Positions 7,462 to 46,519 of a stretch of DNA of 64,000 nt are shown in pieces; the first letter of the stretch is position 1; the number at the start of each line of letters is the position of its first letter. The notes under the pieces are model-generated. The model worked only from the letters and a program-made list of their open reading frames with translations. It was not told where the DNA came from and ran no database searches. Source of the stretch: Halobacterium sp. R2-5 (lineage in GTDB: Archaea; Halobacteriota; Halobacteria; Halobacteriales; Halobacteriaceae); NCBI RefSeq assembly GCF_011734195.1, contig NZ_JAANTH010000001.1, positions 1,488,001-1,552,000 on the forward strand. Direction: 5' to 3'. The position numbers were made by a program, and so were the translations under genes.

Positions 7462-8455
7462 TGTTGACGGGGGGCCAGTACCAGGCGTCGGCGCGCACGG
7501 CGCCGAGGAGCGTCCGGCGGCGCTCGCCGAGGTCGTCGACGGCGGCCGCGAACTCCCCGTCGTCGACCGTGGGAATGCCCGCCCGGCGGAGTCGGTCGAG
7601 GTCCGGCGGCTTCGGCGCCTCCTCGGCCGGTTCGATGAACGCGTTGTCCAGCGTCTCGGTGTAGTTCTTCGCGGCGCTGCGGCCGCTCTCCACGAGCGCC
7701 TCGTTGAGCCGGTCGTCCTCCGGCACGCCGAATCGCAGCAGCGTCAGCGCCTCGTCGAAGACCGCGACCGCCATCGGCGAGGACTTCGACGCCTCGTCGC
7801 TGTGGTAGTAGTGCAGAATCGGGTACGCCTTGTGCTGGGCCGCGAGCGTGTCCAGGTCGGACGCCAGCGAGTTCACCGGGAGTTCGAGCGGGCGGAAGCC
7901 GTCGTCTCCCCACCCGGTCTCCACGACGTCCTCGCCGTCCTCCCCGAGTCCCGAGACGCTGCTGGCGAACGAACGCTTCTCGACGACTGCGCTGAGCACG
8001 GACAGCACGTACGAGACCGCCATCGTCACCGACAGCATCCCGGTGGCGGTGGTCAGCGACGCGGCGAACTCCCACAGCGCGGTCGACGGGTAGTAGTCGC
8101 CGTTCCCCATGGTGAACATCGAGTACGCGACGAAGTAGCTCCGGTTCGCCCACGTAACCGGGCTGTCGCCCCGGGAGTAGACGAGCGCGCTCTCGGCGCC
8201 GCCGAACACGAGCGTCCACCCGACCCAGATGAGTCCGACCCACACGACGAGCGTCAGCACGAGAATGAGCGGGCCGGCGAGGCTGAGCGACCGCGAATCC
8301 CCGTCACCGACCGTCCGGAGGGCGTGCCAGGCGGCCGTCGACAGCCGCGCGGACAGCGGGCCGGCGCCGCCGTCGACCCAGAGCGCGGTCCAGAGCATGT
8401 CCACGAGGGTGACGACGAGCACGACGACACCGACGACGAGGAACGCGAGATTCAT
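7454..8455 (-). CDS. Two-helix-type potassium channel family protein, atypical filter
   Basis: 333 aa. An N-terminal helix (residues 4-26), a second helix (60-84), a pore loop and a last helix (126-156) resemble Ion_trans_2 channels. The selectivity-filter position reads T115-M-G-N-G-D-Y, where canonical K+ channels have T-x-G-Y-G-D. A long acidic cytoplasmic domain (160-333) follows, with no recognisable RCK or CNBD motif. The gene overlaps a DUF421 gene by 8 nt. It is placed in the cytoplasmic membrane. Ion selectivity is uncertain because of the Tyr-to-Asn change in the filter. Confidence 0.75.
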   Translation of the reverse strand: MNLAFLVVGVVVLVVTLVDMLWTALWVDGGAGPLSARLSTAAWHALRTVGDGDSRSLSLAGPLILVLTLVVWVGLIWVGWTLVFGGAESALVYSRGDSPVTWANRSYFVAYSMFTMGNGDYYPSTALWEFAASLTTATGMLSVTMAVSYVLSVLSAVVEKRSFASSVSGLGEDGEDVVETGWGDDGFRPLELPVNSLASDLDTLAAQHKAYPILHYYHSDEASKSSPMAVAVFDEALTLLRFGVPEDDRLNEALVESGRSAAKNYTETLDNAFIEPAEEAPKPPDLDRLRRAGIPTVDDGEFAAAVDDLGERRRTLLGAVRADAWYWPPVNNE

Positions 8456-8638
8456 GGCTGTGACCGAGTACGCGGGCTCGCCGCAGTGGCGTCACGCGCC
8501 ACGCTCGACGCGTCAAGCAGCGCGAGCGGCGCCGAGAGCGACGCTATCGTGCGCTCGACGACTGGACAGTGAGTCGACATCTGCTGCGGACTACGACGCT
8601 TAGAGCAAAAAGCGCGAGACTGGCGACTGCAAGCCCGC

Positions 8639-9745
8639 CTAGACTTCCTCGTTCGGAGTGGTCCGGGGCGAGGCCTCCGGCCGGGTGAGCGTCGCGACGT
8701 CCGTCTCGAACCGGGTGGCCTGTTCGAGGCGAATCCGGCGCGCCTCGCTCTCGCTGACCTGCTTCGGGCCGGCGATCTTCGGGGACAGCGGATCGTACGC
8801 CGAGCTGTCGAAGCCGAGCCGGTCGAGGTACTCCCGAACGGGTGTCGGCTCCAGCCCGAAGTTGATGGCCGCCCTGCTCAGCCCGCACAGCGTCGGGTAC
8901 TCCGGGACGCCGATGTGGTCGTCGTAGACGCCGGGGGCGCCGACTTCCACGGGCTTGTCCTCGGTCTCTTCGACGAGGCGCCGGACGTCCGTCGCGAGCT
9001 GCAGGACCTCCGAGGGGAGCGCCGCGTCGGGCGCGCGCCACTCCACGGTCGGCTGGCACTCCCGCAGCCGGACCGGGTTCAACACGGTGTCCTCGGGTTC
9101 GAAGTGCTCCTCGACGGTCCCCGGCGAGACGCCGCGCTCCGCGGCCAGGGCCTTGAACGACTCGTACGCGTCGTCGACCCGCCGCCGCCACTCGCCGAGC
9201 GAGTCCGCGTACTTCCAGAGCTCGCAGAACTCGTGGAAGTCCGCGCCGCACTTCCGCCGGTAGGCGTGCGCTCGCGCCGACGACCGGACGCCCTCGCCGC
9301 AGTAGTACGGGGACGTGCTCACGAGCGCGAGCGCCGGGTCGACGGCCGTCAGCAGGTTCAGTTGTTCGAGCGGATCGCCCTTCTCGAAGTGGACGTGCGT
9401 GCCCGCGCAGTTCTTCGCGCTCCGCACGCCGTCGCCGTAGATTCGCTCGAACAGCCGGCCGCGCTCGGTGTCCGCGTCCGCCGCCGCCGCCGTCAGCGGC
9501 GTGCCCAGCGGAACGAGGTGCTGGTCGCGGATCTCTGCCTTCCGGATGGCCGCGCGGAGGACTTCCTGCAGGTCGCGCCGGAGCGCCGCCTCCGACGCCC
9601 GCGGTTCGGTCTGCGCTTCCAGCAGCGGGGGAACGAATTCGGGTTCGATACGGTCGTGTGCGTCGGCGACGTGTCTCCCGTCGCTCAAGTTACCGTACTG
9701 GTCGACGACCCAGAGCTCTAACTCGACTCCCGTGGTAAGTGTCAT
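8639..9745 (-). CDS. Glutamate-cysteine ligase (GCS2) family protein
   Basis: 368 aa from ATG 9745 (MTLTTGVELELWVVDQYG); upstream in-frame codons have no family match. The fold is carboxylate-amine ligase (GCS2): the N-terminal GVELELWVVD corresponds to the conserved G-x-E-x-E strand. Later motifs are AGTHVHFEKGD, the S-x-x-Y region and CQPTVEWRAPD. Family members join glutamate to an amine such as cysteine, using ATP. It differs from the main haloarchaeal GshA in its N-terminal text, so the substrate is left open. No coupled gene. Confidence 0.75.
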   Translation of the reverse strand: MTLTTGVELELWVVDQYGNLSDGRHVADAHDRIEPEFVPPLLEAQTEPRASEAALRRDLQEVLRAAIRKAEIRDQHLVPLGTPLTAAAADADTERGRLFERIYGDGVRSAKNCAGTHVHFEKGDPLEQLNLLTAVDPALALVSTSPYYCGEGVRSSARAHAYRRKCGADFHEFCELWKYADSLGEWRRRVDDAYESFKALAAERGVSPGTVEEHFEPEDTVLNPVRLRECQPTVEWRAPDAALPSEVLQLATDVRRLVEETEDKPVEVGAPGVYDDHIGVPEYPTLCGLSRAAINFGLEPTPVREYLDRLGFDSSAYDPLSPKIAGPKQVSESEARRIRLEQATRFETDVATLTRPEASPRTTPNEEV

Positions 9746-35446: not shown

Positions 35447-35814
35447 CGAGAAGTTCGCGCAGTCGCCGCCGAGAGGTCGACGGCAGCCGCGTCCTCCCCG
35501 TGGTTCGACGCCGCTTCACGCGGCGAGGGCGGACGCGGACTGCGCGTTCGGGCGATACCCCGAGACCGCGACCCCCACGAGCGCCCCGGCGGACGGTCCG
35601 CTGCTGGAGCGGGCGTCCGGCGCGTGGAGTGGTGCGGTCATCGGTGTGTCACCCGGGGGTGGCTCGGTCGCTCCGAGCCGTTCGACTTGTCAATCTCCGT
35701 CCGGTACAATAAGTTTTGTTGACGTTTGGCCCGCGTTCACACGGCCGTCTACTGCGCGCTCGCGAAACAACGGCGGCAGTAGATTGATGAAGCGCGCACC
35801 CGGATTCGTGTCTA
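35447..35814. other. Gene-poor intergenic region
   Basis: No confident gene lies in these 368 bases. On the minus strand a 41-codon reading frame (35516-35641) with typical codon choice precedes the structured leader. A relatively AT-rich patch (35685-35722, with ACAATAAGTTTTGTTG) probably holds promoter elements for one or both flanking genes. The rest looks non-coding. Confidence 0.4.
35516..35641 (-). CDS. Possible 41-aa small protein or leader peptide
   Basis: ATG 35641 to TGA 35518-35516. The 41 codons have nearly all G or C in third position, as in neighbouring genes, and the product is Ala/Ser/Pro-rich (MTAPLHAPDARSSSGPSAGA, then a second half with SGYRPNAQ). It lies about 70 nt before the structured leader of the 113-aa gene on the same strand. 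Translation is uncertain; composition alone in GC-rich DNA is weak evidence. Confidence 0.2.
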   Translation of the reverse strand: MTAPLHAPDARSSSGPSAGALVGVAVSGYRPNAQSASALAA

Positions 35815-36237
35815 ATGACTGACGAACCGCTGCGAGCGACGGTCACCCAGCGCGGCGTCCTCTTCTCGCCGGTCGACGGTGACGTCCTCGTCGTTCGGCG
35901 TGACTCGGACGGCGGCTGGGAGCTCCCCGGCGGTCGCCTCGACAGCGACGAGACCGCCCGCGCCGGCGTGTGGCGGGAGATCCGCGAAGAAACCGCTCTC
36001 GACGCCGACGTGGTGACGCCGGTGGACACGCTCGCCTGGCACAACGACGACGGCGACGGCCGCTTCGCGGTCTACTACTACTGCCGGGCCGACGACCGAA
36101 CGGTGTCGCTGTCTCCCGAACACGACGACCACGAGTGGCTGCCGCCCGCGGACGCCTGCCGGCGACTCAGCGACCCACAGGCGGCCGCCGTCGACGCCGC
36201 GATAGCTGCTCGCGAAGCCGCCGTCGAAGCGGAGTGA
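35815..36237 (+). CDS. Nudix hydrolase
   Basis: 140 aa. The Nudix box is complete: GGRLDSDETARAGVWREIREET, split here as GGRLDSDE and ARAGVWREIREET, matching G-x5-E-x7-R-E-U-x-E-E. The upstream strand has VLVVRRDSDGGWELPGG. It hydrolyses a nucleoside diphosphate linked to some moiety, using Mg2+. Substrate unknown. A single gene. The next start (acs) is 160 bp downstream. Confidence 0.92.
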   Translation: MTDEPLRATVTQRGVLFSPVDGDVLVVRRDSDGGWELPGGRLDSDETARAGVWREIREETALDADVVTPVDTLAWHNDDGDGRFAVYYYCRADDRTVSLSPEHDDHEWLPPADACRRLSDPQAAAVDAAIAAREAAVEAE

Positions 36238-36365
36238 CGGCGAGTGAGTCTCAGACGCCGCCGTTGATGCGTTCGCGGCCCCGTCGGTCTGCCGTCCAGA
36301 TCGGCTCGATGTCGCAACTCGGGACCGTCGTGTCACTCCCTCTCCGGGGGGTGGTAGGGCGAACG

Positions 36366-36371
36366 TTTATT
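36366..36371 (+). promoter_or_regulatory. TATA box of the first acs gene
   Basis: TTTATT preceded by CGAACG is 27-32 nt before the ATG at 36398, the correct distance for a leaderless archaeal promoter. Confidence 0.6.
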
Positions 36372-36397
36372 CTCGGGAAGCCGTAGATTCCATACGA

Positions 36398-38350
36398 ATG
36401 CCGGGCGACGAGTCGTGGCATAGCGCGGTCGCCGACGAGCCGGTCGTACCGCCGGCGTCGTTCGTCGAGCAGGCGAACGTCGCCGACGCGGACGTCCGCG
36501 AGAACTTCGAGCGCGAGCACCCGGCGTGCTGGGAGCGCGCCGCCGACCTCCTGGACTGGAGCACCGACTACGACACCGTCCTCACCGAGGACGGCCCGCC
36601 GTTCCGGTGGTTCGAGGGCGGGCGACTGAACGCGAGCTACAACTGCGTCGACCGCCACCTCGACGAGCGCAAGAACCAGGTCGCGTTGACCTGGGAGGGC
36701 CGGCTCGGCGAGTCGCGGTCGTACTCGTACCTGGACCTCTACCGGGAGGTCAACGAGTTCGCGGCCGCGCTCCGGGGACTGGGTGTCGAGGAGGACGACA
36801 TCGTCACCCTCTACATGCCCGTCGTTCCGGAGCTCCCGGTCGCCATGTTGGCGTGCGCGCGCATCGGCGCGCCCCACTCCGTCGTCTTCGCGGGCTTCTC
36901 CGCGGACGCCCTCGCGACCCGCATGGAGGACGCCGACTCGGAGTACCTCGTGACCTGCGACGGCTACTACCGCCGCGGCGCGCCCGTCCACCAGAAGAAC
37001 AAGGCGGACAACGCGGCGATGGCCCTCGACGACGGCGTGGAGGCGACGGTGGTCGTCGACCGCCTGGGAGACGACACGCCGCTGGCCGACGACGAGTACG
37101 ACTACGGCGAACTCGTCACCGAGCACCGCGGCGAGACGGTCGAGCCCGTCGAGCGGGACGCCACGGACCAGCTGTTCCTCATCTACACCTCTGGGACGAC
37201 CGGTGAGCCGACCGGAGTACGGCACACGACGGGCGGCTACTTGTCGTACGCGGCGTGGACGAGCCACGCCGTCCTGGACATCAAGCCCGAGGACACGCAC
37301 TGGTGTTCGGCCGACATCGGCTGGATCACCGGCCACTCGTACACGGTGTACGGACCGCTCGCACTCGGCACGACGACGATGCTGTACGAGGGCACCCCGG
37401 ACCACCCGGAGAAGGACCGCGTCTGGGAGCTCATCGAGCGCAACGCCGTCGACGTCTTCTACACGGCCCCGACCGCGATCCGCGCGTTCATGAAGTGGGG
37501 CGAGGAGCACCCGGGCAGCCACGACCTCTCGAGCCTGCGGCTGCTGGGGACGGTCGGCGAACCCATCAACCCGCGCGCGTGGAAGTGGTACTACACCCAC
37601 ATCGGTGACGAGGACTGTCCGGTGGTAGACACGTGGTGGCAGACCGAGACCGGCGGCATGATGGTCTCGACGCTGCCCGCAGTGGACGACATGAAGCCGG
37701 GGTCGGCGGGCCAACCGCTCCCGGGTGTCGACGCGCGCGTCGTGGACATCGACGGCGAGCCGGTCGAGCCCGGAGAGACGGGCTACCTCGCGCTCACGGG
37801 CCCGTGGCCGGGGATGCCGCTGTCGATGGTCGAGCACGAGGACTGGTTCGCCGAGCACGCCTCCGTGGTCCCGGACCTCTCGGACTACGACTGGGCGTAC
37901 TTCACGGAGGACAGCGCGACCGTCGACGAGGACGGCTACATCACCGTGCTCGGGCGCGTCGACGACGTCATCAACGTCTCCGGGCACCGCTTCGGGACGA
38001 TGGAGATCGAGTCCGCCATCGCGGACGTCTCGGGGGTCGCCGAGGCCGCGGTCGTCAGCGGCCCGCACGACCTGAAGGGGCAGGCGGTGTACGCGTACGT
38101 CAGCGCCACCGAGGAGGACGAGGGCGCGCTCCGCGAGCGCATCGCGGGCGCCGTCGAGGACGCCATCGGTCCCATCGCGGTCCCCGACGTGGTCGTGTTC
38201 ACGTCGGAGCTGCCGAAGACCCGGTCCGGGAAGATCATGCGTCGGCTGCTCGAGGACATCGCCAACGGCGACGACCTCGGCGACACCAGTGCGCTCCGCA
38301 ACCCCGAGGTCGTCGGCGAACTCGAGTCCGCGCTCCCCGACCGCGGCTGA
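36398..38350 (+). CDS. acs: Acetyl-CoA synthetase (AMP-forming), copy 1
   Basis: 650 aa. It activates acetate (or a related short acid) with ATP and CoA via acetyl-AMP. Family landmarks: SFVEQANVADADV start, GGRLNASYNCVDRHL, the ANL adenylation core, GWITGHSYTVYGPL, GTVGEPINPRAWKWYY, DTWWQTETGGMM, the hinge DGYITVLGRVDDVINVSGHR, and the C-terminal catalytic lysine in LPKTRSGKIMRRLL. The ATP-binding A3 loop reads TSGTTGEPTGVRH, where copy 2 has the usual GKPKGVKH. Copy 2 is 2.1 kb downstream with a Bat-type regulator between. Confidence 0.95.
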   Translation: MPGDESWHSAVADEPVVPPASFVEQANVADADVRENFEREHPACWERAADLLDWSTDYDTVLTEDGPPFRWFEGGRLNASYNCVDRHLDERKNQVALTWEGRLGESRSYSYLDLYREVNEFAAALRGLGVEEDDIVTLYMPVVPELPVAMLACARIGAPHSVVFAGFSADALATRMEDADSEYLVTCDGYYRRGAPVHQKNKADNAAMALDDGVEATVVVDRLGDDTPLADDEYDYGELVTEHRGETVEPVERDATDQLFLIYTSGTTGEPTGVRHTTGGYLSYAAWTSHAVLDIKPEDTHWCSADIGWITGHSYTVYGPLALGTTTMLYEGTPDHPEKDRVWELIERNAVDVFYTAPTAIRAFMKWGEEHPGSHDLSSLRLLGTVGEPINPRAWKWYYTHIGDEDCPVVDTWWQTETGGMMVSTLPAVDDMKPGSAGQPLPGVDARVVDIDGEPVEPGETGYLALTGPWPGMPLSMVEHEDWFAEHASVVPDLSDYDWAYFTEDSATVDEDGYITVLGRVDDVINVSGHRFGTMEIESAIADVSGVAEAAVVSGPHDLKGQAVYAYVSATEEDEGALRERIAGAVEDAIGPIAVPDVVVFTSELPKTRSGKIMRRLLEDIANGDDLGDTSALRNPEVVGELESALPDRG

Positions 38351-38401
38351 CCAGTTTCGACTTCCTACACGAGCACGAAACACTACTGGAAGGATAGGTG
38401 C

Positions 38402-38415
38402 GATAGTTAACTATC
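38402..38415. promoter_or_regulatory. Perfect 14-bp palindrome upstream of the Bat-type regulator
   Basis: GATAGTTAACTATC is fully self-complementary and lies 63-76 nt before the regulator's ATG (38478) and 52 nt after the acs stop. It is a good candidate operator, perhaps for autoregulation, by the encoded protein (inference). Confidence 0.45.
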
Positions 38416-38477
38416 TCTACCGGATAGAATCCTCTCACGAAAGTTTCTTGGTTCGCGTTCTCGTCCGTTCACGAAAC

Positions 38478-40271
38478 ATGGCAGTCGAATCGACGGAGTC
38501 GCTGCCGGCGGACTCCTACCGGCGGCTCAGGCGAGCGACGGAGACCCACCGCGAGGAGCTGGTGGTGCGGCTCGCGGGCGAGGTCGGGCTTCGCCCCGCG
38601 GAAATCGCACGCGTGCGGCCCGCGGACGTCACCAGCCACGAGCACGAGGACGGCGACCACTACTTCCTCCAGGTCAGAGACGAGGACGGCGACGTCGCGC
38701 GCGAGGCGTACCTGCCCGCGGACGTCGAGCACGACCTGCGGCAGTACGTCCGCACGGTCGGTGTCGACGACGACGAGCGCCTCGTAGACGTGTCGCCGCG
38801 GCGCGTCCAGATGGTCGTCTCGGAGGTCGGCGACCGCGCGGCCGACCGCACCGGCGACCGCGCGCTGCGCGACGCGTCCACGCGGACGCTCCGCCGGCGT
38901 TTCGCCCGCGAGGTGCTCGCCGAGGGCGTCGACCCGCGTGCGGTCGCGGCGGTCGGCGGCTGGGAGCGGCTCGCGAGCCTCGACCCGTTCGTCGACCACG
39001 CGGACCGAGCGGACGTCGCCGCCGCGTTCGCGGACACCGACCTCGCGCCGGCGCGCCAGACCGAGGAACCGGCGCCGGCCCGCGACGCGCGCTTCGACGC
39101 GGCGTTCGACAGCGTGCGGGCCGTCGGGGACGCGCTCGCGGACGTCTCCACCCGAGACGGCGTCGAGCGCCGGACGTGCGAGACGCTCGTCGAGGACGAC
39201 GCCTACGCGTTCGCGTGGACAGCGCGGTACAGCGGCGGGACGCTGCGCGCGGAGACGCACGTTGGCGCGGACGCAGCCCTCGACGTGACCGCGGAGGGCG
39301 GCGCCGTCGGCGAGGCGCTCTCCACGGGGAGCGTGCACGCGACCGACGACGTCAGCGACGACGCGGCGTTCGCGGACTGGCGCGCGGTCGCCGACGCGGC
39401 GGGGTTCGACGCGGCCGCCGTCGTCCCGGTCGACGACGGCGAGACGACGTACGGCGTGCTCGGCGTCGGCGTCGACGGCGAATTCTCGGACCGCGAGCGC
39501 GACCTGCTCGCAGACCTCGGGCGGCGCGTCGGCCGCACCGTCACGGTCGTTCAGCAGCGCCAGCTCCTGCTCGCGGACACGGTCCTGGAGCTGGCGTTCG
39601 AGACGACGGGCGAGCGGTCGCTGTTCGCCGCAGCGGCCGCCGAGCACGGCTGCACGTTCGAGCTGGACGGCGTCGTTCCCGGCGAAGAACACTCCCTGCT
39701 GTACTTCGTACGCCTGTCTGGCGCGCCCACGGAGGCCGTGCTGTCGTGGGCCGAAGACCGGCCCGCGGTCGCGGACGGCCGGCTGGTCAGGGACTACGGC
39801 GACGAGTCGCTGCTAGAGCTCGCCGTCTCCGGCCCCGACCTCGCGAAGGCGCTGACCGACCACGGCGCGTCCGTGCGCGAGCTGGAAGCGACGCCGAGCG
39901 AGCAGCGCGTCGTCGCGGACGTCACCACTGACACGGACGTGCGCGCGCTGGTCGCCGACGTCTCGGACGCGTTCCCGGACGTGGAGCTCGTTTCGAAGCG
40001 CGAACGCGACCAGCCGGACGAGACGTCGCCGGCGTTCCGTGCCTCGCTCCACGAATCGTTGACCGACAAGCAGGCGTCCGTGCTGCGCGCGGCCTACCAC
40101 GCCGGCTACTTCGAGTGGCCCCGCGGCAGCACGGCCGAGGAGCTCGCGGACGCCATCGGCATCACGTCCCCGACCTTGCACAACCACCTGCGACGCGCCC
40201 AGCAGAAGCTCCTCACGGCGTTCTTCTCCGAGGACGGCGGCCGCACGGACGCCGAGTGGCCCGAGAACTAG
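38478..40271 (+). CDS. Bat-type regulator with degenerate recombinase-like domain, GAF and HTH
   Basis: 597 aa. Residues 12-185 resemble a tyrosine recombinase catalytic domain: EVGLRPAEIARVRPADV (Arg39) and TRTLRRRFAREVLAEGVDPRAVAAVGGW-type text (R136/R139), but the H-x-x-R motif has Arg136 for His and the catalytic Tyr position is Phe171 (LDPFVDHA). Residues about 205-345 are a GAF sensor (VDDGETTYGVLGVGV), then a Bat coupling domain, and residues 537-590 are HTH_10 (LTDKQASVLRAAYHAGYF; ITSPTLHNHLRRAQQKLL). It should sense a ligand and bind DNA. Its place between two acs genes suggests control of acetate use. Confidence 0.85.
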   Translation: MAVESTESLPADSYRRLRRATETHREELVVRLAGEVGLRPAEIARVRPADVTSHEHEDGDHYFLQVRDEDGDVAREAYLPADVEHDLRQYVRTVGVDDDERLVDVSPRRVQMVVSEVGDRAADRTGDRALRDASTRTLRRRFAREVLAEGVDPRAVAAVGGWERLASLDPFVDHADRADVAAAFADTDLAPARQTEEPAPARDARFDAAFDSVRAVGDALADVSTRDGVERRTCETLVEDDAYAFAWTARYSGGTLRAETHVGADAALDVTAEGGAVGEALSTGSVHATDDVSDDAAFADWRAVADAAGFDAAAVVPVDDGETTYGVLGVGVDGEFSDRERDLLADLGRRVGRTVTVVQQRQLLLADTVLELAFETTGERSLFAAAAAEHGCTFELDGVVPGEEHSLLYFVRLSGAPTEAVLSWAEDRPAVADGRLVRDYGDESLLELAVSGPDLAKALTDHGASVRELEATPSEQRVVADVTTDTDVRALVADVSDAFPDVELVSKRERDQPDETSPAFRASLHESLTDKQASVLRAAYHAGYFEWPRGSTAEELADAIGITSPTLHNHLRRAQQKLLTAFFSEDGGRTDAEWPEN

Positions 40272-40285
40272 CTCGTGGTCGGGTT

Positions 40286-40451
40286 GCTAACTGTTTAGTG
40301 ACCGCCGATGGACCGTCGCCCTTCGAGTACTTTGTGGCAGGACTGTTGAGTAGTTAGCAGACGGATATTCCGGTCGGAGCGCCCCTACGGCGCGTTTCGT
40401 CGTTCGTTTCCAGCGCCGCCCGTGTTAGCATAATTAGCGTCGGTACTTAAC
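40286..40451. promoter_or_regulatory. Cluster of CTAA/TTAG half-sites and TATA box upstream of acs copy 2
   Basis: GCTAACTGTTTAG (40286-40298) is an imperfect inverted repeat; TAGTTAG lies at 40351-40357; TTAGC-ATAA-TTAGC (40425-40438) is a direct repeat; and a TTAAC element (40447-40451) is about 25 nt before the ATG at 40474. The half-sites resemble those in the palindrome at 38402-38415, suggesting shared binding by the regulator encoded between the acs genes. No binding data; inference from sequence repetition only. Confidence 0.4.
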
Positions 40452-40473
40452 ACGCATGTCGTAAACGATTGTG

Positions 40474-42477
40474 ATGGATATGTCCGACCAAGATTCCGAC
40501 GTGGAGCTCGAGGCCCGACTCCCCGAGGGGGAGGTCTTCGAGCCCCCGGAGTCGTTCGTCGAGCAGGCGAACGTCTCCGACCCCGGCATCTACGACGAGT
40601 TCGAAGAGAACTGGCCGGAGTGCTGGGAGCGCGCCGCCGACCACCTCACGTGGGACGAGGAGTACGACACCGTCCTCGACGACTCCGAACCCCCGTTCTA
40701 CGAGTGGTTCACTGGCGGCGAACTGAACGCGAGCTACAACTGCATCGACCGGCACGTAGAGGACGGCCGCGGCGACGAAGTAGCCATCGAGTGGGTAGGC
40801 GAACCCACCGACGAGACGCGGACCTACACGTACTCGGAGCTCCAGCGCGAGGTCGAGGAGTTCGCGGCCGCGCTCCGGGACCGCGGCGTGGAGGAGGACG
40901 ACATCGTCACCCTCTACATGCCGATGATTCCGGAACTCCCGATCGCCATGTTGGCGTGCGCGCGCATCGGTGCGCCCCACTCCGTCGTCTTCGCGGGCTT
41001 CTCCGCGGACGCCCTCGCGACCCGGATGAACTCCGCGGACTCGGAGTACCTCGTGACCTGCGACGGCTACTACCGCCGCGGCGACCCGCTCGACCACCTC
41101 GACAAGGCCAACGAGGGCCTCGAGGGCGTCGACCACGAGGTCAGCGACGTGTTCGTCGTCGACCGCCTCGGCGACGACGGCTTCGGCCACGACCTCGCGG
41201 ACAACCAGACCGACTACGACGACCTCGTCGCGGAGTACGAGGGCGCCGAAGTCGAGCCGGTGTCCCGGGACGCCGAGGACATGCTGTTCCTGATGTACAC
41301 GTCGGGGACCACCGGGAAGCCGAAGGGCGTCAAGCACACGACGGGCGGGTATCTGTCGTACGCGGCGTGGACGAGCCACGCCGTCCTGGACATCAAGCCC
41401 GAGGACACGTACTGGTGTTCGGCCGACATCGGCTGGATCACCGGCCACTCGTACATCGTCTACGGACCGCTCGCGCTCGGCACCACCTCCGTGATGTACG
41501 AGGGCACCCCGGACTACCCCGAGAAGGACCGCCTCTGGGAGATCGTCGAGGACTACGACGTCACCCAGCTGTACACCGCGCCCACGGCGATTCGCGCGTT
41601 CATGAAGTGGGGCAAGCAGTACCCCGACCAGCACGACCTCTCGAGCCTGCGGCTGCTGGGGACGGTCGGCGAACCCATCAACCCGCGCGCGTGGAAGTGG
41701 TACTACACCCACATCGGTGACGAGGACTGTCCGGTGGTAGACACGTGGTGGCAGACCGAGACCGGCGGCATGATGGTGACCACCCTGCCCGGCGTCGGCG
41801 ACATGAAACCCGGCTCCGCGGGCCCGCCGCTCCCGGGCATCGACGCGAACATCGTCGACACCACGGGCGAGAAGATCAGCGCCGGCGAGGCCGGCTACCT
41901 CACGATCGACAACCCGTGGCCCGGGATGCTGCGGACGCTGTACGACAACGACGAGCGCTTCGTCGACGAGTACTGGACCGAGTACTCGGACACGGACAGC
42001 AGTGACTCCGAGGACTGGGTGTACTTCCCCGAAGACGGCGCGAAGATCGACGAGGACGGCTACATCACCGTGCTCGGGCGCGTCGACGACGTCGTCAACG
42101 TCTCCGGGCACCGCCTCGGGACGATGGAGATCGAGTCCGCCATCGTCGGCGTCGAGGGCGTCGCGGAAGCCGCCGTCGTCGGCGGCGACCACGACATCAA
42201 GGGTGAAGCCGTCTACGCGTACGTCATCACGGAGGACGGCTACGACGGAGACGAGGACCTCCGCGAGCGCATCGTCGCCGGTGTCGAGGACGCCATCGGC
42301 CCCATCGCGCGCCCGGAGGAAGTCGTGTTCACGTCGGAGCTGCCGAAGACCCGGTCCGGGAAGATCATGCGTCGGCTGCTCGAGGACATCGCCAACGGCG
42401 AGGAGCTCGGCAACACGTCGACGCTGCGGAACCCCGACGTCGTCGAGGACATCCAGGCGAAGGTCTCCGACGACTAA
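40474..42477 (+). CDS. acs: Acetyl-CoA synthetase (AMP-forming), copy 2
   Basis: 667 aa from ATG 40474; ATG 40480 (MSDQDSD) is an equally good start. Same landmarks as copy 1: FVEQANVSDPGI, GGELNASYNCIDRHV, the A3 loop TSGTTGKPKGVKHT with both usual lysines, GWITGHSYIVYGPL, GTVGEPINPRAWKWYY, DTWWQTETGGMMVTT, and LPKTRSGKIMRRLL with the acyl-adenylate lysine. It lies upstream of an Na+/solute symporter unit, so acetate uptake and activation sit together. Long blocks are identical in DNA to copy 1, indicating recent exchange between the copies. Confidence 0.95.
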   Translation: MDMSDQDSDVELEARLPEGEVFEPPESFVEQANVSDPGIYDEFEENWPECWERAADHLTWDEEYDTVLDDSEPPFYEWFTGGELNASYNCIDRHVEDGRGDEVAIEWVGEPTDETRTYTYSELQREVEEFAAALRDRGVEEDDIVTLYMPMIPELPIAMLACARIGAPHSVVFAGFSADALATRMNSADSEYLVTCDGYYRRGDPLDHLDKANEGLEGVDHEVSDVFVVDRLGDDGFGHDLADNQTDYDDLVAEYEGAEVEPVSRDAEDMLFLMYTSGTTGKPKGVKHTTGGYLSYAAWTSHAVLDIKPEDTYWCSADIGWITGHSYIVYGPLALGTTSVMYEGTPDYPEKDRLWEIVEDYDVTQLYTAPTAIRAFMKWGKQYPDQHDLSSLRLLGTVGEPINPRAWKWYYTHIGDEDCPVVDTWWQTETGGMMVTTLPGVGDMKPGSAGPPLPGIDANIVDTTGEKISAGEAGYLTIDNPWPGMLRTLYDNDERFVDEYWTEYSDTDSSDSEDWVYFPEDGAKIDEDGYITVLGRVDDVVNVSGHRLGTMEIESAIVGVEGVAEAAVVGGDHDIKGEAVYAYVITEDGYDGDEDLRERIVAGVEDAIGPIARPEEVVFTSELPKTRSGKIMRRLLEDIANGEELGNTSTLRNPDVVEDIQAKVSDD

Positions 42478-42499
42478 CCACGCACTTCGTTTTCGCACT

Positions 42500-42550
42500 G
42501 ACACACTCACTGAGACGACACACTGACTACAACGACACACCGCAAACTAT
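42500..42550 (+). repeat. Three imperfect 17-nt repeats at the symporter start
   Basis: GACACAC begins at 42500, 42517 and 42534, an exact period of 17. The first two units match at 13 of 17 positions; the third is less similar and runs into the ATG at 42549. Placement in the leader suggests a regulatory or spacer function. Confidence 0.4.
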
Positions 42551-42956
42551 GACAGACAACGACACGCAAGACACGACCGACGCGTCGACCGCCGAACCGG
42601 ACGGCGGCGCGGTGGCTGGCAGGCGCCAGTCACAGGAGAGCACGGACTATCTCACGTCCGAAGTGAACCTGCTGCAGCCGAGCACGCCGTTCATGCGCGA
42701 CCACCTCCGCGTCATCTGGACGGGGTTCGTCGTCTGGGCGGTCATCGTCTTCGGCCCGGTGACCGCGACGGCGGTCGCCCCCGGCGTGATGACGACGACG
42801 ATGCCGATCATCGGCTTCCCGCTGCACTACTTCCTCGTCGCCATCGGCGCGCCCGGCGGCGCGCTGATTCTCGCGTTCTGGTACGCGCGCAAGCGCGACG
42901 CCCTAGACGAGAAGTACGGCATCGACCACGGGACTGACGGAGGGGTCTCCGAATGA
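42549..42956 (+). CDS. DUF4212 family symporter small subunit
   Basis: 135 aa. A disordered N-terminus of about 45 residues is followed by two helices: VIWTGFVVWAVIVFGPVTATAV and FPLHYFLVAIGAPGGALILAFWY. The P-L-x-[YW]-F-L-x-x-x-x-x-x-x-x-F-[IVL]-x-L-x-x-x-Y pattern and the C-terminal YARKRDALDEKYGI are DUF4212 hallmarks. This family always accompanies a sodium:solute symporter. The stop overlaps the next start by four bases (ATGA at 42953-42956). Confidence 0.9.
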   Translation: MTDNDTQDTTDASTAEPDGGAVAGRRQSQESTDYLTSEVNLLQPSTPFMRDHLRVIWTGFVVWAVIVFGPVTATAVAPGVMTTTMPIIGFPLHYFLVAIGAPGGALILAFWYARKRDALDEKYGIDHGTDGGVSE

Positions 42957-44647
42957 CGGACGTATTCTCAGTCGCGGGCAGCGCGGTCGCACAGTCCGGC
43001 CTCCTCCCCGAGGGGCTGAACGTCTCGTTCAAGGCGCTGCCCGCCGTCATGGTGACGGCGATGCTGCTGCTGTTCCTCGTCATCGGCTACGTGTTCAAGG
43101 TCGCCGACACCGAGGGCATGTGGGTCGCCGGGCGCTCCATCGGGAACGTCGAGAACGGCATGGCCATCGGCGCGAACTGGATGTCCGCGGCGTCCTATCT
43201 CGGCATGGCGGCGCTCATCGCCACGTCCGGGTTCTACGGGCTCTCGTTCGTCGTCGGCTGGTCGACCGGGTACTTCATCCTGCTCATCTTCATGGCCGCC
43301 CAGATGCGGCGGTTCGGGAAGTACACCGCGCCGGACTTCGTCGGCGACCGCTTCAACTCCGACACCGCGCGCGCCATCGCCGCGGTCACCACGTTCCTCA
43401 TCGGGTTCGTGTACGCCATCGGGCAGGCCCGCGGCATGGGCCTCGTCGGCCTCTACATCTTCGGCGACATCGGCCTCCCCGGGCTCTCCGGCTACCAGTC
43501 GATGGTCGTCCTCATGATGGCCATCACGGTCGGGTACCTCACGCTCTCGGGGATGCTCGGCGCGACGAAGAACATGGCCGTCCAGTACGTCATCCTCATC
43601 CTGGCGTTCCTCTCGGCGGTGTACGTCGTCGGGTTCGTCAACGGCTACTCGACCGTGCTCCCGCAGATCGAGTACGGCGCGATGTTCAGCCAGTTGGCCA
43701 GCGAGTTCAGTGAGCCGTTCGTCAACGGCGGCTTCTACCTCTGGATAGCCACCGCGTTCTCACTCGTCGTGGGGACGTGTGGGTTGCCACACGTGCTCGT
43801 GCGGTTCTACACCGTGGAGAACGAGCGCACCGCCCGCTGGTCGACCGTCTGGGGGCTCGGCTTCATCCTCCTGCTGTACCTCGGGTCGCCCGCGCTCGCG
43901 GCGTTCGGTACCGACCTCTACGCAGAGAACATCGGTCCGGTGTACGGCGACCCCGGCATGACGACCGCCGCCGGTGACGTCATCGTCGTGCTCGCCGCGC
44001 AGCTGTCGAACCTCCCGACGTGGTTCGTCGGCCTCGTCGCGGCCGGCGGCATCGCGGCCGCCATCGCGACGGTCGCCGGCCTGTTCATCGCGGGCTCGTC
44101 GGCGATCTCCCACGACATCTACGCGAACATCATCAACGAGGACGCCACGCAGCGCCAGCAGGTGCTCGTCGGCCGCCTCAGCATCGTCGCGCTCGGCGTC
44201 ATCACGACGCTCGCCGCGCTCGACCCCGCGGCGCCCATCGCGGCGCTCGTGTCGTACGCGTTCTCGCTGGCCGGCGCCGTGCTGTTCCCGATGTTCTTCC
44301 TCGGGCTCTGGTGGGAGAACACGAACCGCCAGGGCGCCCTCGCGGGCATGACCACCGGGCTCACCATCTGGGCGATCCCGATGATCAACGAAGTGCTACC
44401 GGCGTACGGCTTCTTCAGCGGCGCGACGAACGCCAACGGCGTGCTGTCCGCGGCCATCGCGCAGTGGGTGCCCGCAATCGGCTCCGCGCTCGTCGCGGTG
44501 CCGATCGTGTTCGCGGTGACTATCGCCGTCTCGCTGGTAACGTCCGAGCCGGACATGGAGACCAAGAAGATGGTCCGGCAGTGCCACAGCCCCGAGCCGA
44601 TGCGCAAGCAGCAGAGCGCCGAAGACGCAGTGAGCTCTGACGACTAA
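42953..44647 (+). CDS. Sodium/solute symporter (SSS family, acetate permease-like)
   Basis: 564 aa with about thirteen helices. SSS features: the N-terminal VIGYVFKVADTEGMWVAGRSIGNVENGMAIGANWMSAASYLG region, split by helix 1, the Na+ region around GTCGLPHVLVRFYTVENERTAR, and GSSAISHDIYANII. It resembles the ActP/VC_2705 branch that imports short carboxylates such as acetate or lactate with sodium. Position after two acs genes supports acetate, though lactate is equally possible. Translationally coupled to DUF4212 upstream and UspA downstream (TAATG at 44647). Confidence 0.9.
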   Translation: MTDVFSVAGSAVAQSGLLPEGLNVSFKALPAVMVTAMLLLFLVIGYVFKVADTEGMWVAGRSIGNVENGMAIGANWMSAASYLGMAALIATSGFYGLSFVVGWSTGYFILLIFMAAQMRRFGKYTAPDFVGDRFNSDTARAIAAVTTFLIGFVYAIGQARGMGLVGLYIFGDIGLPGLSGYQSMVVLMMAITVGYLTLSGMLGATKNMAVQYVILILAFLSAVYVVGFVNGYSTVLPQIEYGAMFSQLASEFSEPFVNGGFYLWIATAFSLVVGTCGLPHVLVRFYTVENERTARWSTVWGLGFILLLYLGSPALAAFGTDLYAENIGPVYGDPGMTTAAGDVIVVLAAQLSNLPTWFVGLVAAGGIAAAIATVAGLFIAGSSAISHDIYANIINEDATQRQQVLVGRLSIVALGVITTLAALDPAAPIAALVSYAFSLAGAVLFPMFFLGLWWENTNRQGALAGMTTGLTIWAIPMINEVLPAYGFFSGATNANGVLSAAIAQWVPAIGSALVAVPIVFAVTIAVSLVTSEPDMETKKMVRQCHSPEPMRKQQSAEDAVSSDD

Positions 44648-45114
44648 TGTACGACAACATCCTCGTTCCGACGGACGGTAGTGCGGCATCCCGCAGCGCG
44701 GTCGACCAGGCCGTCGACCTCGCAGAGAAGTACGACGCGACCGTACACGCGCTGTACGTCTTCGACATCGACGCCACGAACCTCGCGCTCGGCACCGAGC
44801 AGGTCGAGCGCATCCGCCGCGGAAAGCTCGACGAGATGCCAGAGGTGCGCGAGAAAGCCGACGAGGCGACCGGCTACGTCGCCCGCATCGCCGGCGACCA
44901 CGGCGTGCCCGTCGAGGAGCACGTCACCGCCGGCGAGCCCGCGCGCGCCATCCGGAAGTTCGTCGAGGACAACGACGTCGACCTCGTCGTGATGGGGAGT
45001 CACGGGCGCTCCGGGCTCTCCCGCGTCGTCCTCGGCAGCGTCGCCGAGAAAGTGCTGCGTCGCACCCGGCTACCGGTGCTGGTCGTCGACGCCAGCGGAG
45101 ACAACGAGGACTGA
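44647..45114 (+). CDS. Universal stress protein UspA family
   Basis: 155 aa. A UspA fold: MYDNILVPTDGSAASRSAVDQAV at the start and the nucleotide-binding MGSHGRSGLSRVVLGSVAEKVL (G-2x-G-9x-G-[ST]) at the end. Members bind ATP and often regulate a partner membrane transporter. The ATG shares one base with the symporter stop (TAATG), so it is translated with the symporter and probably modulates it. Confidence 0.9.
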   Translation: MYDNILVPTDGSAASRSAVDQAVDLAEKYDATVHALYVFDIDATNLALGTEQVERIRRGKLDEMPEVREKADEATGYVARIAGDHGVPVEEHVTAGEPARAIRKFVEDNDVDLVVMGSHGRSGLSRVVLGSVAEKVLRRTRLPVLVVDASGDNED

Positions 45115-45164
45115 GACACCGATATGAACGCGACGACAAAACAGACGGCGACGGGGGCCGACCG

Positions 45165-45377
45165 GTGAGCGTCCTCAACGCCATCCGCGACCACGTCGTC
45201 GAACACCACGACGGCATGCTGTTCGACATGGTGTTCGCCGTCGGGTGGGTGACGATCGTCTCGCTGCTGTTCGAGACGTTCGACGCGCCCCAGCTGGTGT
45301 ACTACGGCGCGCTCGCGGCCGGCGTCGTCGCCTACTTCGGGTTCGTCTACTCGCTGAAGCTCGCGAAAGAACAGTAG
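45165..45377 (+). CDS. Small haloarchaeal two-helix membrane protein
   Basis: 70 aa from GTG 45165. Two hydrophobic segments: MLFDMVFAVGWVTIVSLLF and LVYYGALAAGVVAYFGFVYSLKLAK. It follows UspA by 50 bp and probably belongs to the symporter transcript. A 14-codon frame (45124-45168) ends in a GTGA overlap with this start, which could couple its translation. Function unknown. Confidence 0.6.
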   Translation: MSVLNAIRDHVVEHHDGMLFDMVFAVGWVTIVSLLFETFDAPQLVYYGALAAGVVAYFGFVYSLKLAKEQ

Positions 45378-45388
45378 CCCGACCGCCG

Positions 45389-45394
45389 TTTTTT
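45389..45394 (+). terminator. Oligo-T terminator after the symporter operon
   Basis: Six consecutive T residues after a GC-rich GACCGCCG stretch, 12 bases past the stop of the 70-aa gene. Archaeal termination commonly uses such T-tracts. It overlaps the first stop base of the convergent DoxX gene. Confidence 0.4.
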
Positions 45395-45948
45395 CACCCG
45401 AGGATGTACCGCATCCAGGGGTAACGCTCGACGAGCGTCTCGCCGCCGACGTCGTAGTTCTCGACGTAGGAGTCCAGCCCGAGGATGCGCCCGGCGCCGA
45501 ACGCCGCCACGGAGAGGAACACGAGCATGTACGCGAAGTCGCCGTTGATGTAGCCGTGGGCGACGTCCCAGTTGCCGAGGTAGAACATGAGCATCATGAA
45601 CGCGCCCCAGAACGCCGCGAGGCGGGTCAGGAGGCCCACGATGAGGCCGAGGCCGATGAGGACTTCTCCCCACGGGACGGCGACGTTCACGAAGTCGACG
45701 AACCACGGCGTCTCGCCCATCGCGACGAAGAGGTCCGCGACCGGACTGCCGTTCGCGGGCGGCGCGTTCTGCAGGTAGCCGGCGGCGCTGAAGCTGCCGG
45801 ACAGCACTTTGTCGGCGCCGCTCCAGAGGAACGCGACGCCCATCATCAGCCGGAGCGCGAGGATGAACCAGACGCTCAGCGAGTGGAGTTTCCCGGTGGC
45901 CGTGAAGCCGCCGACCGTGCTCTCGAGTCTGTGTTCTCGGGTGGACAT
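45394..45948 (-). CDS. DoxX family membrane protein
   Basis: 184 aa with four helices. DoxX features: WFILALRLMMGVAFLWSGADKVL, then a loop and FVNVAVPWGEVLIGLGLIVGLLTRLAAFWGAFMMLMFYLG, and NGDFAYMLVFLSVAAFGAGRILGLD. DoxX proteins associate with quinol oxidation or membrane redox enzymes in some organisms; the role here is not clear. Its promoter region contains an inverted GTTTG...CAAAC repeat and an AT-rich TATA-like stretch about 34-41 nt upstream. Confidence 0.88.
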   Translation of the reverse strand: MSTREHRLESTVGGFTATGKLHSLSVWFILALRLMMGVAFLWSGADKVLSGSFSAAGYLQNAPPANGSPVADLFVAMGETPWFVDFVNVAVPWGEVLIGLGLIVGLLTRLAAFWGAFMMLMFYLGNWDVAHGYINGDFAYMLVFLSVAAFGAGRILGLDSYVENYDVGGETLVERYPWMRYILG

Positions 45949-46519
45949 GAGTGTTTGAAACCAAACTCCCCACCCCCATTAAAACAATGGCTGGTTCTCG
46001 GGATATTGGAGGACTACACGCCGAATCTGGTTTCTCGCGATTCATTCACGCGCGCGTCGGCCCCCGAAAGTTCTCGCACAGTCGCCGGAAGACCTACGAA
46101 TTACCAGATATCGATACAGTGTGTATAAATTATATAGATCCCGACTGGAGCGCTCTGCCGGATCGAGGAGTGGGCGGCCGGCGGTCCGACAGCTCGGCCA
46201 CAGGTGGCAAAGCGGGTGCGAGAGGACTCGCTCCGAGTTCGAGATCTCGCACGCAGTTCGGTTGTCGTTCTGGAGTTCAGAGACGACGATACACCGTCAA
46301 TAGGTAGATATTCCACCTAGCTACACTGCTTCAAACTGTCCCTCATGCCCGAGTTCACGACTTCGGAATCTATCCGAGCGCCGTCCGCAGTCCGGGACGA
46401 GTTAGCTCGCGCAGCCAGTGGGTATGCTCGAACTAGCCCCCGCGATTTCGCATAACTATGGATATGCTACGCGGAAAATACCAGATGTTGGACTATACTG
46501 CGTGGCGGGCGGGTGAGCC
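45949..46519. other. AT-rich gene-free stretch with promoter-like elements
   Basis: 571 bases, clearly more AT-rich than its surroundings and without a credible gene. GTTTGaaacCAAAC (45953-45966) is an inverted repeat near the DoxX start, with a TTTTAAT-like minus-strand box (45982-45990). A TATAAATTATATAG run (46125-46138) is a strong TATA-like element with no gene behind it. TAGGT/ACCTA inverted arms (46301-46305, 46315-46319) occur further on. It marks the boundary of the sugar-acid island. Confidence 0.5.

Follow-up and report, generated by a model that had tools for sequence, protein, structure and literature searches.

The gene at positions 38478-40271 (+) of the window, the 64,000-nucleotide stretch of Halobacterium sp. 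R2-5 DNA that was analyzed here, encodes a regulator (REG) that is likely, on the evidence of sequence comparison and structure modelling, to be an autoregulated activator of acetate use that was exapted from a now catalytically dead integrase. Integrases are DNA-recombining enzymes of viruses and mobile DNA. In haloarchaea the activation of acetate is a central node of carbon metabolism, and REG is proposed to act there as a one-component regulator that controls transcription of the genes for acetate uptake and activation. An initial annotation of this DNA had read the gene as a regulator built on an inactivated tyrosine recombinase-like domain and placed between two acs genes, and that reading is supported overall by the predicted fold, by the loss of catalytic residues, by synteny, and by cis elements that track REG. 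Three features described below were absent from it: the conservation of the locus, which corresponds to that of the acetate-induced transport operon of Haloferax volcanii, the dyads around the REG promoter, and the YTAG box of acs2.

The open reading frame delimited by the initial annotation is present, with its ATG at 38478, its stop codon ending at 40271 and a length of 597 aa; orthologues across Halobacteriales are of comparable length. Four domains are encoded in order on the same strand: an integrase-like domain (residues 8-185; 38499-39032), recognized by Pfam PF00589, PHROG integrase families 216/1, AlphaFold and Foldseek; a GAF domain (residues 225-352; 39150-39533; Pfam GAF_2, E 6e-10); a BAT domain (residues 367-522; 39576-40043; PF15915, E 1.2e-46, 158.8 bits vs a gathering score of 25.8); and an HTH_10 domain (residues 528-579; 40059-40214; PF04967, E 1.9e-22, 79.2 bits vs 23.1). 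Pfam thus recovers both the GAF and the HTH_10 domains that had been placed behind the recombinase-like part, and adds BAT. HTH_10 is the best-conserved domain of REG (mean identity of 76% to the window protein, with dN/dS near 0 within Halobacterium), and the Foldseek list obtained with the full-length model is headed by GAF structures. The window genome holds 18 matches to the REG protein, mostly to its BAT/HTH_10 parts; the neighbouring species by name are Halobacterium sp. KA-4 and CBA1126.

Residues 8-200 are assigned to integrase by PHROGs (216/1), and phmmer matches REG to the archaeal Xer structures 4a8e and 5hxy. The Pfam Phage_integrase match (PF00589, residues 9-172) is weak, at 27.6 bits against a gathering score of 27.1, and the fold was therefore checked by structure prediction, as the initial annotation had proposed. 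With 14 orthologous integrase-like domains as input, AlphaFold returned a model of the domain with pLDDT 83.4 and pTM 0.76, for which Foldseek against the PDB retrieved XerA, Cre, XerH, Tn1549 integrase and an integron integrase; the best match has E 9e-8 and TMq 0.63 (TMq range 0.53-0.65), and the best 50 of 323 matches are all tyrosine recombinases. The N-terminal part of REG is thus predicted by modelling to adopt the tyrosine recombinase catalytic fold, in common with the catalytic domain of XerA (5hxy, 4a8e). XerA has a core-binding domain as well; no Xer-type N-terminal SAM-like core-binding domain was found in REG by Pfam, its catalytic-type domain begins at residue 9, and its score for the XerA NCBIfam model (37.6; cut-off 220) places it below XerA membership.

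By profile search, the nearest relatives of the integrase-like domain are stand-alone haloarchaeal recombinases of ~200 aa, which like XerA, and unlike REG, keep the catalytic set and carry no sensor or HTH. A set of 16 such proteins (14 haloarchaeal and two from other members of the phylum) has the R-K-H-R-W/H-Y residues complete in 16/16, and none of 66 fused proteins has R-K-H-R-W-Y complete. In the alignment, the catalytic states of the window protein are R39 (Arg I), no beta-hairpin Lys, R136, R139 (Arg II), W162 and F171, and judged by its sequence REG would not qualify as an active tyrosine recombinase (R-K-H-R-(H/W)-Y). The alignment bears out that codon 136 (38883-38885, +) specifies Arg at the H-x-x-R position that is His in 16/16 stand-alone recombinases, and that codon 171 (38988-38990, +) specifies Phe at the position of the nucleophilic Tyr, though this latter substitution is confined to part of the family; loss of the beta-hairpin Lys is a third change, absent from the initial annotation. 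Among the fused proteins the Lys is lost in 64/66 and the His in 63/66 (replaced by Arg in 29 and Ser in 21), and the Tyr is kept in 40/66 and lost in 26 (8 Phe, 4 Leu and others), its state having changed at least eight times on the tree. Since Tyr still occurs in 40 of the 66, inactivity is marked across the family as a whole by the missing Lys and His, and Phe171 is a lineage feature. The fold, taken together with catalytic-residue loss relative to intact nearest relatives, supports the view of an inactivated recombinase domain.

Retention of the Tyr in those members, and of Arg II (66/66), Trp (64/66) and Arg I (59/66), would be expected if some strand cleavage or recombination persisted, at least in Tyr members, on the paired dyads described below, whose spacing of ~96 bp could suit promoter inversion or looping. 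We regard such residual catalysis as very improbable, given that no fused protein has the full set, that Lys and His are lost almost throughout, that the Tyr state changes repeatedly while the locus stays, and that the window protein itself carries Phe.

The fused proteins occupy one side of a branch with support of 96/88 in a first tree and 92/90 in a second; the exception in the first, a 354-aa integrase-like frame mislabelled as fused (L149), was left out of the second. The simplest account of this single clade is that the fusion happened once. A single-domain haloarchaeal tyrosine recombinase would have been captured by a GAF-BAT-HTH_10 regulator and would then have lost its catalytic ability, with the fold and many arginines retained. 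Six of these (Arg 25, 75, 108, 109, 120 and 139) are invariant in 40 orthologues. The integrase-like domain has a dN/dS of 0.1-0.4 in comparisons inside Halobacterium as well as inside other genera, below or similar to that of GAF, which argues that the domain is in use; it is also better conserved than GAF. The nearest relatives are likely recombinases of mobile elements (PHROG integrase families), as might be expected of a recent gene fusion or of a decaying mobile-element pseudogene with no role in acetate use, but the conservation found here already contradicts that account, to which we assign next to no probability: the fused proteins form an old single clade across Halobacteriales, with intact open reading frames, purifying selection and a conserved locus. 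A viral source was rejected after a DNA search, as one stand-alone recombinase (L115) has no relatives among the viral contigs and a single phage integrase matches at 25% identity. Upstream of the stand-alone gene at seven loci (L113, L115, L119, L121, L123, L124 and L125) lies an inverted repeat, CGACTT-N7-AAGTCG, which may serve the active enzymes as a core site or as an operator; the form GACTT-N7-AAGTC is found at 7/21 stand-alone recombinase genes.

REG lies between two co-directional genes for AMP-forming acetyl-CoA synthetases, in agreement with the initial annotation: acs1 (36398-38350, +; annotation and synteny) and acs2 (40477-42477, +; start uncertain within 40471-40480). Annotation and gene order identify the genes that follow as a DUF4212 small subunit (42549-42956, +), a sodium:solute symporter (SSS) of the VC_2705 type, ActP in H. 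volcanii (42953-44647, +), and a universal stress protein (USP; 44647-45114, +). Across 40 neighbourhoods the order acs-REG-acs-DUF4212-SSS-USP is kept with few exceptions, and in Haloferax alexandrinus, close to H. volcanii, it is found on a plasmid with REG between the two acs genes. In 121 of 195 Halobacteriales genomes 124 REG loci were counted, two of which are split or truncated genes; 100/124 REG genes are co-directional with DUF4212-SSS and lie 2.0-5.4 kb (median 4.0) before it, and several of the remaining loci are on contigs without a DUF4212 gene or in genomes without one. REG and DUF4212 are both present in 108 of the 195 genomes and both absent from 62, with one only in 13 and 12 (Fisher p 1e-25, a value that ignores the kinship of the genomes). 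The linkage of REG to genes of acetate uptake and activation is conserved. Two near-complete Halobacterium genomes (G027 and G056) jointly lack the fused REG and DUF4212.

Judged by gene order, the position of acs2 in the window is orthologous to that of H. volcanii acs7, and the order acs7-HVO_A0155-ssf(actP)-uspA28 equals that of acs2-DUF4212-SSS-USP. These four H. volcanii genes give one 4.6-kb transcript on acetate and none on glucose or casamino acids, and deletion of ssf (actP) lowers acetate uptake by 80% (PMC7746861). As acs7 is HVO_A0156 and acs8 is HVO_A0158 (PMC7746861), the H. volcanii REG is presumably HVO_A0157. The paper describing this operon (PMC7746861) does not mention the adjoining REG gene and uses the word 'regulator' 0 times, and the Haloferax acetate papers found name neither the adjoining REG nor a factor behind acetate induction of the operon. 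REG and the two kinds of conserved site described below would supply a named, testable candidate for this induction in a genetically tractable host. Among known RNA elements, Rfam contains none that matches at 35500-46000. An element upstream of acs1 (36359-36372; GCGAACGTTTATTC) is probably the acs1 TATA region, and AACGTTTATT recurs in 14/37 orthologous upstream regions.

Alignment of orthologous acs1-REG gaps revealed two 28-bp inverted repeats, GTTTCG-N16-CGAAAC, around the REG promoter. Site A (38354-38381) is perfect and lies 3 bp past the acs1 stop codon; site B (38450-38477; GGTTCG-N16-CGAAAC) has one mismatch, and its last base abuts the REG ATG. About half of the orthologous loci have paired dyads. 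The conserved part is the outer 6-bp arms, around a centre of 16 bp; a spacer of 15 is seen at the loci of one family (f8; probably Natrialbaceae, although this is a guess). Site A is the only perfect copy in the 2.98-Mb genome, and forms with at most one mismatch occur at six places, two of them at the REG promoter. Exact TTTCG-N16-CGAAA is present in 16/35 orthologous gaps vs at most 2 in 30 shuffles. A frozen pattern (score <=2, N15 or N16) was found in 35/38 validation gaps, some of them related to loci of the first set and a few of them the same loci again, and in 80/3000 random 190-bp pieces (2.7%). Dyads are rare upstream of acs1 (2/38) and acs2 (1/36). None (0/18) was found upstream of 18 paralogues of BAT type without the integrase-like domain (Int-less) elsewhere; three Int-less BAT/HTH_10 proteins of acs operons gave one weak match (score 2), no match at score <=1.5 occurs upstream of 21 Int-less BAT/HTH_10 proteins, and there is none at score <=1.5 near stand-alone recombinases in 20 loci. 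The site at 38402-38415 (GATAGTTAACTATC) that the initial annotation had singled out for binding studies does exist, but its dyad, GATAG-N4-CTATC, is exact in only 3/35 orthologous intergenic regions; kept only in close relatives, it was rejected as the main operator.

A REG dimer is proposed to bind both 28-bp dyads flanking its own promoter, which would result in autoregulation, with the integrase-like domain as a dimer or DNA-binding platform at the dyads. Another factor could be served by them, and orthology confounds the link between dyad and integrase-like domain. A more specific version, in which the dead integrase domain recognizes the dyads as a dimer, like a recombinase on its core site, so that REG bridges or loops its own promoter from sites ~96 bp apart while HTH_10 activates the acetate operon, is offered tentatively and is rather doubtful as a whole. 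The candidate repeat of the stand-alone recombinases has different arms and a 7-bp spacer, so that recombinase-like recognition is not supported by the dyads, and the integrase-like domain is acidic overall (net -4 to -5 per 100 aa; GAF and BAT are more acidic). If true, a metabolic regulator conserved throughout Halobacteriales would contain a former recombinase that now clamps a promoter at two sites.

The acs2 promoter has a conserved element of another kind (40434-40450, +), a TTAG box located 8 bp before a TATA-like CTTAA, within the interval 40286-40451 for which the initial annotation had likewise proposed binding studies. An extended form, GTTAGCATAATTAGCG (40424-40439, +), is conserved in an alignment of 9 Halobacterium loci. 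The general pattern YTAG-N7..9-YTTW, ~44 bp before the acs2 start codon, is present at 35/36 loci (shuffle mean 1.5), a count from the same 36 loci from which the pattern had been read off by inspection; applied unchanged to others, it occurs in 16/16 further acs2 promoters with REG and in 0/11 operons without REG (4 examined at acs2 and 7 at DUF4212, possibly a different promoter), in counts that take no account of relatedness. At the other two promoters the box is found in 0/35 (acs1-REG region) and 2/37. The ATAATTAG form was rejected as a universal acs2 site, being present in only 16/62, the general form being the shorter YTAG pattern. From this box, just upstream of TATA, the HTH_10 end of REG would most likely activate acs2-DUF4212-actP-usp, in response to a signal that GAF/BAT may read. 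Directly past the REG stop codon, a segment at 40286-40300 (GCTAACTGTTTAGTG) is conserved in several Halobacterium loci. In three related genomes (loci L159, L160 and L161) the acs2-DUF4212-SSS operon has no YTAG box and is preceded, at a distance of several kb, by a GAF-BAT-HTH regulator of the Int-less type, possibly a replacement of the regulator.

Control of the locus by REG is also compatible with a purely structural or dimerization role of the integrase-like part, with HTH_10 alone binding at the dyads as well as at the YTAG box. This is a quite possible arrangement, to which we give somewhat under an even chance: HTH_10 is the best-conserved domain, and in Bat, the founding member of the family, it is the C-terminal HTH that contains the DNA-binding motif (PMC1447603), but the YTAG box and the dyads are unrelated in sequence, which suits two DNA-binding modules, and the six arginines noted above are invariant. 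Less probable, and in our estimation unlikely, is that other, unlinked regulators bind the dyads and the acs2 box while REG controls distant genes or answers another signal. Haloarchaea have many regulators, as the 18 matches to REG in the window genome illustrate; on the other side, nearly every locus has dyads at its REG promoter, the dyads hardly occur elsewhere in the genome, and the YTAG box is missing from operons without REG. The reading of REG as the autoregulated activator of the acetate genes is preferred.

The domain architecture itself is not new: archaeal tyrosine recombinases of fam30-04, with Phage_integrase, BAT and HTH_10 and in some cases GAF_2, were listed in 2021 (PMC8371274), and their Pfam content, as given in the relevant passages of that source, equals that of REG. 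Those passages name the domains and do not refer to loss of catalysis, the acs locus, dyads or a regulatory role; novelty thus resides in function, inactivation and cis sites and not in the domain list. Like REG, Bat (the bacterio-opsin activator of Halobacterium) has a sensor part with GAF followed by a C-terminal HTH DNA-binding motif (PMC1447603, PMC3184054), and for bop a regulatory UAS 5' to the gene is described in outline (PMC1447603), the YTAG box being likewise 5' to acs2; Bat differs in having GAF and PAS/PAC domains without an integrase domain, and in targeting bop and not acs. Dedicated control of acetyl-CoA synthetase expression, as proposed for REG, is described for CrbS/R of Gram-negative bacteria (PMC5436829), a two-component system of proteins unrelated to REG. 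No published functional study of the REG protein was found in a search with little coverage of subscription journals, which is weak evidence of absence. REG would also be a clear example of how an integrase-type recombinase can be co-opted as one part of a transcription regulator of metabolism; single-domain relatives of its integrase-like part that look active are still there for comparison.

Some REG genes depart from the common structure. At three loci of Haloglomus and a related MAG (L096, L097 and L109) the REG frame is without the start of the integrase-like domain, and tblastn sees the sequence upstream; the gap in the frame may reflect a frameshift, an intervening sequence or a sequencing error. 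In a Halobacterium relative (G146, locus L044, ~8283-9672) the gene is interrupted near codon 167 by ~1.4 kb containing a 396-codon open frame that resembles an insertion-sequence transposase, making it a natural mutant in which the integrase-like part is cut off from the remaining REG domains.
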